Source of the DNA: Nitrososphaerota archaeon
GTDB taxonomy: Archaea; Thermoproteota; Nitrososphaeria; Nitrososphaerales; Gagatemarchaeaceae
Assembly: GCA_027886885.1 (NCBI GenBank)
Contig: JAPCJP010000008.1
Span: forward strand, 1 to 64,000
Direction: 5' to 3'
DNA: 64,000 bases
Part shown: positions 2,996-7,496 of the stretch, one piece after another
How the letters are laid out: every line of letters begins with the position of its first letter
Numbering within the stretch: position 1 is the first letter of the stretch
Made by a program: the position numbers and the translations under genes
The notes under the pieces: model-generated
What the model saw: the letters and a program-made list of their open reading frames with translations, nothing else
The model's database searches: none
Told to the model about the DNA's origin: nothing

Positions 2996-3879
2996 CCTGA
3001 GCCCCCCGAAGGGTCTGTCCGTCCTGGGACGGTCGGCCCTGGCCGGTACCACGGAGGCAGTTCCGGGACCATCGGCCCGTTGTAGCCAAACGTCGAGTAT
3101 ACCTGAGCCTTGGTGTAGTACCCGTAGGAGCATGTGAACCTGAGGATTTGGGCCACGCTCAGGAGGAAGATGTTCGATTTCCAGACCTCCATGTATTGCT
3201 CCTTCTCCTCCGGGTCGAGCTCCACGAACCTCTTCCACCGGCCGGTGAAGGCTAACACGAAGAACCTGCTGTCGAAGACGAAGAGCAGCGTGGTTATCGC
3301 GTCGTCGAAGAGGGGCGGTATCTCCTGGAGCAGGTCCTCGACCGACGCGGACGCGTCCACATCGTTCGCGCTCGCCGGGATCGCACCGCCTCTGGGGAAC
3401 TCCGCCTCCGAGAGCGCCCGAAGTATCTTCGCCCTCTCCTTCATCCGCTGGGCGGGCGTGACCCTGAGGCCGGACCTTCCCAGCTCCGTTCCCAGGTAGT
3501 ACCATGCCGGGTACGTCGCGAATATCACGACTGCCGCAACGTCTGTCGTCGCCGACCTCGAGAGACCCAGCGGTAGGCCCGAGTTCAGCATCCAGTCCGT
3601 CCCCCCGTACCAATGGGGGAGCGGCCACGGGAAGTAGATGACGCCGAGGTAGAGGAGGGCGCTGTACGCCCAAAAGAGTGCGACGACCATCGCACCCGCG
3701 GCGATGAGCTCCCTACGGAGCACGCCCCGTGAGAAGACCCGGTCGCCGAATGCGACGGCCAGGTAGTACAGCTTGCCGGCAAGGAACCCAATCAGCAGAA
3801 GGGCGAACGGGTCGAGAAGGAAGCTCAGGGGCCCAGCGCCATCGCTCGTAACGCGCGCCCCGCATATATTACCGTGCAC
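2992..3879 (-). CDS. Membrane protein fused to FAO-type small-subunit domain
   Basis: The N-terminal half has about four membrane helices. The C-terminal half is soluble and resembles the region that precedes the FAD domain in long-chain alcohol oxidases (FDDAITTLLFVFDSRFF, FTGRWKRFVELDPEEKEQY, SYGYYTKAQVYSTFGY). It is translationally coupled to the GMC gene through a TTG/TGA overlap, so the two products probably form one membrane-anchored enzyme. The start is unsettled: GTG at 3879 is the first standard codon, but the apparent TATA element (3863-3872) would lie inside the gene. CTG at 3828, about 39 bp below the TATA centre, fits the promoter better and removes a non-membrane leader of 17 residues. 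Confidence 0.7.
   Translation of the reverse strand: MHGNICGARVTSDGAGPLSFLLDPFALLLIGFLAGKLYYLAVAFGDRVFSRGVLRRELIAAGAMVVALFWAYSALLYLGVIYFPWPLPHWYGGTDWMLNSGLPLGLSRSATTDVAAVVIFATYPAWYYLGTELGRSGLRVTPAQRMKERAKILRALSEAEFPRGGAIPASANDVDASASVEDLLQEIPPLFDDAITTLLFVFDSRFFVLAFTGRWKRFVELDPEEKEQYMEVWKSNIFLLSVAQILRFTCSYGYYTKAQVYSTFGYNGPMVPELPPWYRPGPTVPGRTDPSGGSG
3862..3872. promoter_or_regulatory. Shared TATA element between divergent genes
   Basis: GCATATATTAC is an AT-rich island in GC-rich sequence between the GMC-operon leader gene (minus) and the OGG-like gene (plus). On the plus strand it centres about 37 bp before the ATG at 3904, and on the minus strand a similar distance before CTG 3828. Confidence 0.55.
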
Positions 3880-3903
3880 TCCCAGGCTCGACCGAGCGCT
3901 CCA

Positions 3904-4845
3904 ATGTGGGAATTCAACCTGAACCTGGTCGACGTCCCCTTCGACCTCGGTTACACGCTGGAGAGCGGTCAGGCGTTCCGGTGGGCCCACCGAGACGGCA
4001 CGTGGTATGGCGTGGTCGGCGGTGGCGTCCTCAAGGTGAGGCAGGAGGGTTTCACCCTCTTCTGCGCCTCGAGCTCTGAGCACCTGGGCTCCAGATTTGT
4101 GCACGACTACTTCAGGTTGAACGACGACTTCGGAGCGATAATGGCGTCCATCCCCAAGGATGAGGCGATTACCGAGGCCTTCGAACGCTACCGGGGGCTT
4201 CGACTGATACGGCAGGATGTCTGGGAGTGTCTGGTCTCCTTTGTGATCTCCACGAACACCAACATCCCGCGCATAAGGGGGATGGTCTCCAACCTGTGCG
4301 ACAAGTTCGGGGGCCGAGTGAACTTCGAGAGCCTGGACTACTCGCTCTTTCCCAGCCCCGAGCAACTCGCCTCGGCCACGATCGAGGACCTGTCCGCCTG
4401 CGGGCTGGGCTACCGGGCCCAGTTCGTCAGGGACATCTCCTGGACTGTGGACAGCGGTTTTGTCAACCTCGACGAGCTGCGGCTGCAGGATTATTCCAGG
4501 GCAAAGGAGATACTTCTCGAGCGCGTCCTCGAGAAGAAGACATTTCTCGGCATAGGCCGCAAGGTCGCCGACTGTGTCCTGCTCTTCTCCTGCGATAAGG
4601 ACGAAGCCTTCCCCATCGACGTCTGGATAGCCAGGGTGCTGGAGGAGTCCTATCCACACTTGTTCAGCGCCGACATCATGGCAAAGCTCAACTCCAAAGT
4701 CTCAGGTAGGGGCTCGCTCTCCGACAAGACCTACGACGCAATCTCGGAGGCCGTTCGGTCCCACTTCGGCAAGTATGCGGGGTACGCGCAACAGTATCTA
4801 TTTCACAACGCCAGAAAAGGCAGGAGTGACCGCTCTGGCGTCTGA
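3904..4845 (+). CDS. ogg: 8-oxoguanine DNA glycosylase/lyase, OGG1-like
   Basis: A 313-residue base-excision repair enzyme of the HhH-GPD superfamily. The N-terminus has the OGG_N-like segment YTLESGQAFRW. The helix-hairpin-helix GIGRKVADC places Lys at residue 220, and PIDVW places Asp at 239; this 19-residue spacing equals that of the catalytic Lys249/Asp268 pair of human OGG1. The protein should excise 8-oxoguanine and cut the strand by its lyase activity. ATG 3904 is chosen because the upstream GTG at 3874 lies in the promoter region next to the TATA element. The gene is convergent with the eL13 gene, with one base between them. Confidence 0.88.
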   Translation: MWEFNLNLVDVPFDLGYTLESGQAFRWAHRDGTWYGVVGGGVLKVRQEGFTLFCASSSEHLGSRFVHDYFRLNDDFGAIMASIPKDEAITEAFERYRGLRLIRQDVWECLVSFVISTNTNIPRIRGMVSNLCDKFGGRVNFESLDYSLFPSPEQLASATIEDLSACGLGYRAQFVRDISWTVDSGFVNLDELRLQDYSRAKEILLERVLEKKTFLGIGRKVADCVLLFSCDKDEAFPIDVWIARVLEESYPHLFSADIMAKLNSKVSGRGSLSDKTYDAISEAVRSHFGKYAGYAQQYLFHNARKGRSDRSGV

Positions 4846-5331: not shown

Positions 5332-6405
5332 TTGAGCATCGACGACCGCTATTTCGCAAGGCAGCTCGTCCTCGATGGCTTCGGGAGGAGTTCGCAGGAA
5401 CGACTGGCCCGCTCGAAGGTCCTGATAGCGGGCTTGGGGGGTACCGGCAGCCTGATGGCCGTCCACCTCGCTCTGGCCGGCGTCGGTCGGCTCACCTTGG
5501 TGGACAGGGATGTTGTCTCCTTCGAGAACCTCCATCGCCAGCCCATCTACGCGATGGATGACGTGGGCAAGTCCAAGGCCGAGGTCGCAGCCAAGTTTGT
5601 GAGTGACCGCGTTCCCCGATTGAAGGTGGCCTATCGCACCGAGTCCATCGACCAAAGGAACTCCCTCGACCTGCTCGGAAACGCGGACCTGGCCGTCGAC
5701 TGCCTCGACAGCATGGATGGGAGGAGGGCTCTGAACTCCTCTTGCGTGGAGAGGAAAAAACCGTTCGTGCACACCGGGGCGATCGGTTGGGAGGTCTCCG
5801 AGGCTGTCCTTTGGCCCGGGAGGACGGCATGTTTCGAATGCCTGTTCCCTCCCGTCGCCCAAACCCATGGGGAATACGAGGACCTCCCTTCGTGCGACCA
5901 GGTAGGAACCCTCGGCCCTGTAGTTGCGATGGCCGCCTCCCTCGGTGCCACGGACGCGATAAAGGTGCTAGCGACCCAAGAGCGGGTGACCCTCGGCAGG
6001 ATGACCGTCTGGGACGGGAGGTCGGGAGAGATTCATCGTGTCGACATCAAGAGGCGCTCGGATTGCGCAGCCTGTGGAACCCACTCTGCCCGCGCCGTGA
6101 AGAATCCCCAGAGTCAAATCGGCAAAAGCCGAGTCATCGAACTTTGCGGCGGCAGAGAGTATTACGTCACTAACATCCTCTCGCCCGCTCACTTTGCCGA
6201 CGCGGGACGGAGATTCCTCGCCCGAGGCGCAGAGATGAGGGGGGAATCGATAGTCCACATCCGGGTCGGTGAAGTAGAGGTTTCCCTTTTCAGAGCCGGG
6301 GGTGCGGTCGTTAGGGGAGTTCCATCAGCTCGAGAAGCAGCGAAAGTGATCAAGGAGCTTGGGCTCGAGGGCGCTGAGGTCAGGTTCGCGACCGGAAATG
6401 CTTAA
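5332..6405 (+). CDS. ThiF/MoeB/UbaA-family E1-like adenylyltransferase
   Basis: A 357-residue adenylating enzyme that would activate the C-terminus of a ubiquitin-like sulfur carrier or modifier. GLGGTGS (residues 34-40) is the ATP-binding loop, and VDRDVVSFENLHRQ carries the conserved Asp and Arg/Gln residues. CFEC (167-170) and CAAC (245-248) form a zinc site. Cys188 in PSCDQVGTLGP is the candidate catalytic cysteine. About 90 residues beyond the usual MoeB fold form a small C-terminal domain that I do not recognise. No ubiquitin-like gene is adjacent. TTG 5332 is chosen because it lies about 30 bp below the TATA element; open frame further upstream is shadow sequence. Confidence 0.85.
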   Translation: MSIDDRYFARQLVLDGFGRSSQERLARSKVLIAGLGGTGSLMAVHLALAGVGRLTLVDRDVVSFENLHRQPIYAMDDVGKSKAEVAAKFVSDRVPRLKVAYRTESIDQRNSLDLLGNADLAVDCLDSMDGRRALNSSCVERKKPFVHTGAIGWEVSEAVLWPGRTACFECLFPPVAQTHGEYEDLPSCDQVGTLGPVVAMAASLGATDAIKVLATQERVTLGRMTVWDGRSGEIHRVDIKRRSDCAACGTHSARAVKNPQSQIGKSRVIELCGGREYYVTNILSPAHFADAGRRFLARGAEMRGESIVHIRVGEVEVSLFRAGGAVVRGVPSAREAAKVIKELGLEGAEVRFATGNA

Positions 6406-6409
6406 GATA
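6401..6409 (+). promoter_or_regulatory. TATA element for tRNA-Tyr
   Basis: CTTAAGATA begins inside the stop region of the E1-like gene and centres about 27 bp before the mature 5' end of the tRNA at 6432, the usual archaeal spacing. Confidence 0.55.
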
Positions 6410-6454
6410 TGCGCGTCGAGCCTGGTCACGTCCCGCGGTAGCTCAGCCTGGTAG

Positions 6455-6472
6455 ATCCTTCACGGAACCAAA
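6455..6472 (+). other. tRNA-Tyr intron 1, D stem, 18 nt
   Basis: A bulge-helix-bulge can be drawn. Central helix TGGT (6449-6452)/ACCA (6467-6470); 5' bulge AGA (6453-6455); 3' bulge AAA (6471-6473); inner hairpin TCC-TTCAC-GGA. Cutting after the second nucleotide of each bulge joins G6454 to A6473 and restores the D-stem strand GAGC exactly. Without removal the D stem cannot form. Confidence 0.85.
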
Positions 6473-6487
6473 AGCTTCCGGCTGTAG

Positions 6488-6531
6488 CGGTCGGCCATCG
6501 GCTGACCCGTCAGCATACACAGGCCACAGAC
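6488..6531 (+). other. tRNA-Tyr intron 2, position 37/38, 44 nt
   Basis: Bulge-helix-bulge: central helix CTGT (6482-6485)/ACAG (6526-6529); bulges AGC (6486-6488) and ACA (6530-6532); outer helix TCCGG/CCGGA is the anticodon stem; inner helix GGTC/GGCC. Cutting after 6487 and 6531 yields the 7-nt anticodon loop CTGTAGA. Confidence 0.85.
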
Positions 6532-6587
6532 ACCGGAGAGCCGTCGGCTCAAATCCGACCCGCGGGACTTATTCTTCTCAAGCATAT

Positions 6588-7496
6588 TTAGCTCGACTGA
6601 GTATTCCTAGAAGCTTGCTTCTTGAACCATCTGCGGCCGCGCCTTTCATAGTGTCCAAGAAACCACTTGTACCCTTCGGTTGGTTCCAAGTTCATCGAGA
6701 CCCAAATCAAATCCTGTAACTTCGTTCTCTTTGCTGGAATTGAGAAGTTGATGGATGAGCTGAAGAGCATTGCCGCGCCTCGTCCCCGAATTAGCAGATG
6801 CCAGACATCGTGTTTCCTGAAGAACGTTCTACCGCGAATAGTCATTGGCTCTCCTGCCACATGGGTCCTGCGGCGCGATGTCCGCATTCCCAGGGTCGCC
6901 AACAGTCTTTCAATGCAGCTTAGGTAGGCCTCATTGCTATTTGCGATTCCAATGGTAATTCCCCTGAATCGTTCTGCGGCAAAATCAAGGTTGGCGGACA
7001 CATAACCTTCGGCGTCGAAGAAACCCCGAAGAAATGCTTCAGGTGAACTCTCGGCGTAGGGAATCAGCTGTTCGATAGGTTGTTGAAGAAAATCGTACAG
7101 GACCGCGGAATCGTACACCACGCTGTGGAATCCGTGCTCGATCCTTGTAGCCTTGGGTTGTGTCCCCAGAACTTGGGCCACCGATTCATTCAGGAGATTG
7201 GCAAAATCAGGGTCGGCCACATTGAACCTGACCTTCTTGTCTGCTTCACCTGCGGTGCGCCCGTCTCCGAGGTACGCTCCCAACAAGTAAGCAAGGTCGG
7301 GCCTGGGGGTAAGATCCGGAACGTACGCTTCTCGAGTGGGGCGATGCCGCCGCAACCAATACACGTAATCGACTTTGACGCCCAAGATCTCGGCGATTTC
7401 AGAAGCCCGAAGACCCGAGGACCGAAGTTCACTAGCCTTTTGATACAACTTGAGGCGTTGTTCTAGGGTCCCGTGATTGCCATTTTGGCTGGGCAC
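6588..7496 (-). CDS. Free-standing LAGLIDADG homing endonuclease
   Basis: A 302-residue protein. The N-terminal part (about residues 10-52) is a helix-turn-helix-like DNA-binding region (SEIAEILGVKVDYVYWLRR). The two LAGLIDADG helices are YLLGAYLGDG (70-79) and FLRGFFDAEG (155-164), each ending in the acidic catalytic residue, so one chain should form a complete double-strand nuclease. It ends 20 bp from the 3' end of the intron-containing tRNA-Tyr and is convergent with it. GTG 7496 is chosen because a TATA (7516-7525) lies 25 bp upstream. Its composition looks more AT-rich than its neighbours, as expected of a mobile gene. The target site is unknown; the tRNA locus is the obvious candidate. 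Confidence 0.85.
   Translation of the reverse strand: MPSQNGNHGTLEQRLKLYQKASELRSSGLRASEIAEILGVKVDYVYWLRRHRPTREAYVPDLTPRPDLAYLLGAYLGDGRTAGEADKKVRFNVADPDFANLLNESVAQVLGTQPKATRIEHGFHSVVYDSAVLYDFLQQPIEQLIPYAESSPEAFLRGFFDAEGYVSANLDFAAERFRGITIGIANSNEAYLSCIERLLATLGMRTSRRRTHVAGEPMTIRGRTFFRKHDVWHLLIRGRGAAMLFSSSINFSIPAKRTKLQDLIWVSMNLEPTEGYKWFLGHYERRGRRWFKKQASRNTQSS

Follow-up and report, generated by a model that had tools for sequence, protein, structure and literature searches.

Positions 6432-6567 of the 64,000-nt stretch of DNA analysed here (the window) raise the question of whether a locus that ordinary tRNA scans pass over encodes a functional tRNA-Tyr(GUA), and what its two introns might do in the precursor.

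Structure, copy number and processing genes

The initial annotation had proposed a 74-nt tRNA-Tyr with a C1-G72 pair, interrupted inside the D stem and again after the anticodon, and had expected ordinary tRNA scans to miss the gene. The boundaries of its three exons and two introns were confirmed to the base (Table 1). Excision of the 18-nt and 44-nt introns yielded CCCGCGGTAGCTCAGCCTGGTAGAGCTTCCGGCTGTAGACCGGAGAGCCGTCGGCTCAAATCCGACCCGCGGGA, 74 nt, in which every stem is paired, the anticodon is GTA, and the acceptor end carries C1-G72 and A73; the joined exons thus form a standard tRNA with a consistent identity. An intron-aware dynamic-programming aligner, custom-written for the present analysis and permitting introns anywhere, recovered the identical junctions at 22/23 and 37/38, in agreement with the annotated borders. 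ARAGORN reported 0 tRNAs over the whole window, and Rfam, searched at the gathering and at a permissive threshold, gave no match at the tRNA-Tyr locus. These results indicated that ordinary scans do miss this gene, as had been anticipated. RNAfold placed the spliced tRNA in a non-cloverleaf structure (D-loop CAGCC paired with GGCUG), which was set aside as an effect of folding the tRNA without its modifications.

Table 1 Features of the tRNA-Tyr(GUA) locus, in window coordinates
Feature	Coordinates	Strand	Basis
Putative BRE/TATA promoter element around GCTTAAGATATGCGC, ~25-30 nt 5' of the tRNA	6396-6412	+	alignment of family loci
Exon 1 of tRNA-Tyr(GUA), positions 1-22	6432-6454	+	sequence and intron-aware alignment
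D-loop UGGU, 5' strand of BHB-1 central helix, also within the segment that pairs with the 37/38 intron block	6449-6452	+	
Intron 1, 18 nt, D-stem position 22/23	6455-6472	+	relaxed BHB; covariation over 32 distinct homologous introns; 35/38 sampled family members
Intron 1 ACCA, 3' strand of BHB-1 central helix	6467-6470	+	covariation
Exon 2, positions 23-37, anticodon GTA at 6484-6486	6473-6487	+	sequence and intron-aware alignment
Intron 2, 44 nt, canonical position 37/38	6488-6531	+	complete BHB
P1 hairpin in intron 2, 8 bp, loop AUC	6489-6507	+	folding; homologous introns
CAGC in intron 2, reverse complement of exon GCUG 6481-6484 (tRNA positions 31-34); candidate 3' guide strand beside U35	6511-6514	+	
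UACaCAGGC in intron 2, with complementarity to D-loop GCCUGGUA 6446-6453 and A6519 bulged out	6516-6524	+	precursor MFE; compensatory changes
ACA, 15 nt from C6511, also within BHB-2 3' strand ACAG 6526-6529	6526-6528	+	conserved spacing
Exon 3, positions 38-73	6532-6567	+	sequence and intron-aware alignment

At the site of the putative promoter element, a GAAA.GCTTAAGAAAT-like block lies at an equal distance from the gene in most aligned Gagatemarchaeaceae loci. Three members of the genus (L180, L181 and L184) carry a different AT-rich box there, of the TTATAT/TTAAAT type.

The window belongs to contig C98 of a 2.16-Mb, 122-contig archaeal metagenome-assembled genome (MAG) that is 73% complete. 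Among the compared loci, the closest named record is Candidatus Gagatemarchaeum stordalenia (PLUF01000038.1, L059/L178), a member of the same genus, which places the organism in the Gagatemarchaeaceae. The Gagatemarchaeaceae, formerly thaumarchaeal group I.1c, are known from acidic soils (PMC10640624). The genome encodes both a heteromeric splicing endonuclease and an RtcB ligase (E 2e-171). Of the two endonuclease paralogues, one resembles the catalytic-type chain of the Aeropyrum pernix enzyme (3p1z_B, E 1e-43) and retains the conserved Tyr, His and Lys; the second, of the structural type, is a weaker match to archaeal endonucleases and lacks the His. A two-gene heteromeric endonuclease has been reported for Thaumarchaeota, where it accompanies non-canonical introns (PMC3218864, PMC4090602).

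A second, intact tRNA-Tyr gene, which the initial annotation had named as the finding that would speak against this copy, was sought by whole-gene BLAST, by spliced-exon BLAST and with the Rfam tRNA model, and none was found in the 73%-complete MAG. Nearly all relatives that matched the 37/38 pattern, complete single-contig genomes included, likewise gave one match. A locus that ARAGORN called tRNA-Tyr (L011, G000:C82:2110-2201) was rejected as a second copy: it has G1-C72 and U73 and belongs to another isotype, probably an intron-bearing tRNA-Thr(UGU).

The window very probably holds a functional, single tRNA-Tyr(GUA) gene that would give one precursor with two bulge-helix-bulge (BHB) introns, to be cut by an (alpha-beta)2 endonuclease and joined by RtcB, with intron 2 serving as a clamp or switch. 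Counted against this explanation are the single outer pair of the first BHB motif, the 73% completeness of the MAG, which makes a further tRNA-Tyr copy conceivable, and the fact that folding energy does not favor the clamp in the window precursor after intron 1 is taken out.

The intron at position 22/23

Both introns are bordered by two 3-nt bulges flanking a 4-bp helix, the arrangement that defines a BHB motif, and the outer helix is minimal for intron 1. In BHB-1 the 5' bulge is A6453 G6454/A6455 and the 3' bulge A6471 A6472/A6473 (slash, cut site). The central helix joins D-loop UGGU to ACCA of the intron, the inner helix joins UCC (6456-6458) to GGA (6464-6466), and the outer helix is a lone C6448-G6474 pair, so that BHB-1 is classed as a relaxed BHB. 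Both hand-drawn BHB motifs of the initial annotation are therefore present, the first with one outer pair instead of a full outer helix. A6455 and A6473 are identical and the junction could be shifted by one base with the product unchanged; the BHB register sets it at 22/23. Intron 1 splits the D stem, so its removal is needed before the tRNA core can form, which bears out the earlier view that the D stem depends on this excision.

When intron 1 was shuffled, a 4-bp central helix arose in 7.1% of the shuffles, and both that helix and a 3-bp inner helix in 0.08%. As a sequence-based test of BHB-1, covariation across relatives is stronger than shuffling. The tRNA-Tyr genes of relatives yielded 40 distinct 22/23 introns, and the covariation set consisted of the 32 distinct versions with a length of 15 nt or more, each cut back to the register of the pairs and scored over eight BHB and hairpin pairs. 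In this set 96.9% of the pair cells were paired, compared to a shuffle mean of 84.7%, and 31 two-sided changes were counted, compared to a shuffle mean of 8.1 (reached in 0 of 500 shuffles). Sliding the register by 1-3 bases destroyed the fit. L180 and L181 have C20 in place of U20 and retain the helix by way of a G in the intron. Every 22/23 intron compared has an outer helix of just one pair, and all are thus relaxed BHBs.

The comparison of introns in relatives, which the initial annotation had recommended, located a 22/23 intron in 35 of the 38 sampled Gagatemarchaeaceae tRNA-Tyr genes and gave the strong covariation described above. The three remaining genes (G007, of the same genus, G024 and G035) lack the intron precisely and have intact exons. 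Lengths in the family range from 13 to 29 nt and 18 nt is typical; the idea that the 18-nt intron is among the smallest splicing substrates was not upheld, as 13-nt introns occupy the same position of the same gene in relatives. Position 22/23 was listed among the known non-canonical intron positions in a 2014 review (PMC4090602). The 22/23 intron of tRNA-Tyr is not unusual; it is of a known type and ordinary for the family. It shares 3-nt bulges, a 4-bp central helix, the short 22/23 intron and the heteromeric endonuclease with the non-canonical BHB introns of Crenarchaeota and Thaumarchaeota (PMC4090602), but here it interrupts tRNA-Tyr of an uncultured soil family, the Gagatemarchaeaceae, and has an outer helix of one pair.

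The 37/38 intron, its pairing with the D-loop and its possible roles

The 37/38 intron, which the initial annotation had treated as ordinary, is the more interesting part of the gene. In BHB-2, CUGU (6482-6485) pairs with ACAG, flanked by 3-nt bulges with cuts at 6487/6488 and 6531/6532; as its outer helix is the full anticodon stem and its inner helix has 4 bp, this BHB is complete. Shuffles of intron 2 contained the central helix and a 4-bp inner helix in 0.03% of cases. Across 158 homologous introns P1 is variable in sequence and has a mean of 7.6 bp and a mean z of -2.7. The 3' half of the intron is kept from Nitrososphaeria to Brockarchaeota and some Bathyarchaeota in the order P1, then CAGCC-UACCAGGC-NN-ACA. 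UACCAGGC is the reverse complement of D-loop G15-A21, as CAGCC is of G30-G34.

The D-loop and the intron change together. Where nucleotide 17 of the D-loop is U, its intron partner is A in 21 of 22 distinct sequences, and C17 faces G in 134 of 142. Similarly, C at nucleotide 20 is matched by G in 10 of 11 and U by A or G in 149 of 153. L262 and L263, which have A15 with a U partner, lie outside this count. Such changes recur within family f1, within f13 and f22 (each with both states) and between families, indicating that the covariation does not reflect one inherited event. The counts were made on hand-defined columns because RNAalifold, run on 165 precursor segments, chose an invariant exon-exon pairing, as RNAfold had. 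A local GCCU/AGGC hairpin was considered as the cause of the conserved block and rejected: species with U17 have AAGC, which breaks the hairpin and restores the D-loop pair, so that pairing with the D-loop is the better reading.

The minimum free energy structure of the unspliced window precursor contained P1, CAGC paired with GCUG, and UAC-a-CAGGC paired with GCCUGGUA (z -3.9). When intron 1 was removed in silico, the D-loop pair probability was 0.01 for the window, compared to a mean of 0.53 over 158 homologues; energy alone therefore does not settle the clamp. On comparative sequence evidence, the pairing between the D-loop and the 37/38 intron is well supported. The conserved pairing element and its guide-like spacing appear to be previously undescribed.

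The genes and motifs suggest that the two-subunit (alpha-beta)2 endonuclease would cut both introns and that RtcB would ligate the exons. Intron 1 would fold by its own hairpin and by the 4-bp helix with D-loop UGGU, holding G18 and G19. Intron 2, which is old and structured, would pair with the D-loop (GCCUGGUA with UAC-a-CAGGC) and with G31-G34 (GCUG with CAGC), leaving U35-A36 unpaired. The D-loop UGGU would then be claimed by both BHB-1 and the clamp, and C32-U35 and the ACA by both BHB-2 and the clamp. As the clamp and the BHB helices share bases and are mutually exclusive, the precursor would have to rearrange from a clamped to a splicing-competent fold. A plausible order would be clamping (perhaps with modification) first, followed by removal of introns 1 and 2 as the D-loop is freed.

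Three other accounts of the locus were weighed. A pseudogene, or a chance assembly of tRNA-like pieces that gives no spliced product, would agree with the silence of standard tRNA finders, but it is very improbable, given exons that add up perfectly and are conserved, compensatory changes in the introns, a promoter-like block that is likewise conserved, and a single copy. The pairing of the D-loop with the intron could instead be a folding chaperone or a splicing-order device only, blocking docking of the D-loop with the T-loop until the endonuclease acts and having no guide role. This is quite plausible, if somewhat short of probable: the covariation backs the pairing, and competition with the BHB-1 and BHB-2 helices could time the cuts, yet a chaperone leaves unexplained why an ACA that does not depend on the BHB strand stays at a constant 14-15 nt. 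Counted from the C opposite G34, the base immediately 5' of U35, the ACA is found at 14 or 15 nt in 157 of 167 distinct introns, compared to 2.4% of shuffles. The ACA coincides with the BHB strand in ~60% of introns; in the remainder that strand is located 2-28 nt downstream and the spacing of the ACA is unchanged, as in Nitrososphaeraceae, Nitrosocaldus, L142 and L163.

This spacing corresponds to that of archaeal H/ACA guides, in which the ACA is 14-16 nt from the target (PMC7991803); in the window it is 15 nt from the target uridine. Pseudouridine is known at position 35 of tRNA-Tyr, where aPus7 forms it or, as in Sulfolobus and Aeropyrum, an H/ACA guide directs its formation (PMC6313347). 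The canonical pre-tRNA-Tyr intron of Nitrososphaeria and some Bathyarchaeota might accordingly be a built-in, H/ACA-like guide for U35, a tentative and on balance doubtful reading in which the D-loop and UACCAGGC would form the lower stem, CAGCC the 3' guide strand on GGCUG, and the ACA the box. Cbf5, which the genome encodes, would convert U35 of its own precursor, or after excision that of another tRNA-Tyr, to pseudouridine, and here the pairing would be resolved before both BHB introns are cut; this would add to the preferred explanation. A lower stem followed by ACA is indeed supplied in cis by the covarying D-loop and intron, which differs from a free-standing guide. Pairing is confined to the 3' side of the target (CAGC with GCUG), however, with no 5' guide strand, and the window P1 is an uninterrupted 8 bp with a 3-nt loop and has neither kink-turn nor K-loop. 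As kink-turn and 5' guide arm are both absent, the 37/38 intron was not assigned to H/ACA. The gap between P1 and CAG (usually 4 nt, range 1-15) and the overlap of the ACA with the BHB strand in many introns also argue against a guide. TruD/aPus7, found in 53 of 61 genomes including the present one, could make the pseudouridine at position 35 here, and the notion that a general lack of aPus7 accounts for the element is unsupported. No TruD/aPus7 was found in eight Nitrososphaerales genomes (G049, G053, G055, G057, G059, G060, G061 and G067), several of them more than 90% complete, and four of these (G053, G055, G057 and G061) keep the 37/38 element, which favors a guide. No box C/D arrangement with a guide beside box D was seen in 133 distinct introns inspected.

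The candidate element shares its target nucleotide and an ACA at 14-16 nt with the Psi35 H/ACA guide of Sulfolobus and Aeropyrum (PMC6313347, PMC7991803), but lies inside the target's own intron and is without a kink-turn and a 5' guide strand. It also recalls the box C/D intron of pre-tRNA-Trp in Haloferax and other Euryarchaeota (PMC11408192), where a tRNA intron guides modification of its own tRNA; here the tRNA is tRNA-Tyr, the element is of the ACA type and pairs with the D-loop, and the guide function is putative. If true, the guide would be an ACA counterpart of that intron. The deep conservation of the 37/38 element suggests that there is a reason for its retention, and the intron may help to modify or fold its own tRNA. 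Cultured ammonia-oxidising archaea share the element, which makes the idea directly testable there.

Intron number and gene neighborhood in relatives

Among 232 parsed tRNA-Tyr loci, which include duplicates of some genomes, 66 have one intron, 89 two, 64 three, 11 four and 2 five. An extra T-loop intron is present in 30 of the 38 family genes and is absent from the window and from genus members G001 and G002. Clear cases of four BHB introns are seen at 22/23, 37/38, 53/54 and 59/60 in L237, L280, L281, L283 and L284, and at 30/31, 37/38, 53/54 and 59/60 in L154 and L218. Five BHB introns (9/10, 30/31, 37/38, 53/54 and 59/60) are found in L287 (G055:C63) and L261 (G104:C185), which belong to different families; two T-arm introns of L261 were placed by eye because the parser positions were wrong. 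In the five-intron genes the T-loop is a 6-nt exon, TTCAAA.

According to reviews, archaeal tRNA genes have at most three introns each (PMC8450103, PMC4033280), and a literature search of incomplete coverage returned no report of archaeal tRNA genes with four or five. The multiple-intron tRNA genes of Thermoproteales, with at most three (PMC4033280, PMC8450103), are alike in having several BHB introns per gene; the window gene has two, whereas relatives of the same class have four or five. Nitrososphaeria tRNA-Tyr is an intron hot spot (1-5 introns in this sample), and the presence and precise absence of an intron within one genus make it well suited to following how introns are gained and lost in nature.

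Beside the tRNA gene, and not within an intron, a protein with a LAGLIDADG_3 domain is encoded at 6588-7496 (-), and homologues lie near tRNA-Tyr in L178, L182, L204 and L205. An 8-oxoguanine glycosylase gene, at 3874-4845 (+) in the window, stays no more than a few kb away from tRNA-Tyr in much of the family.
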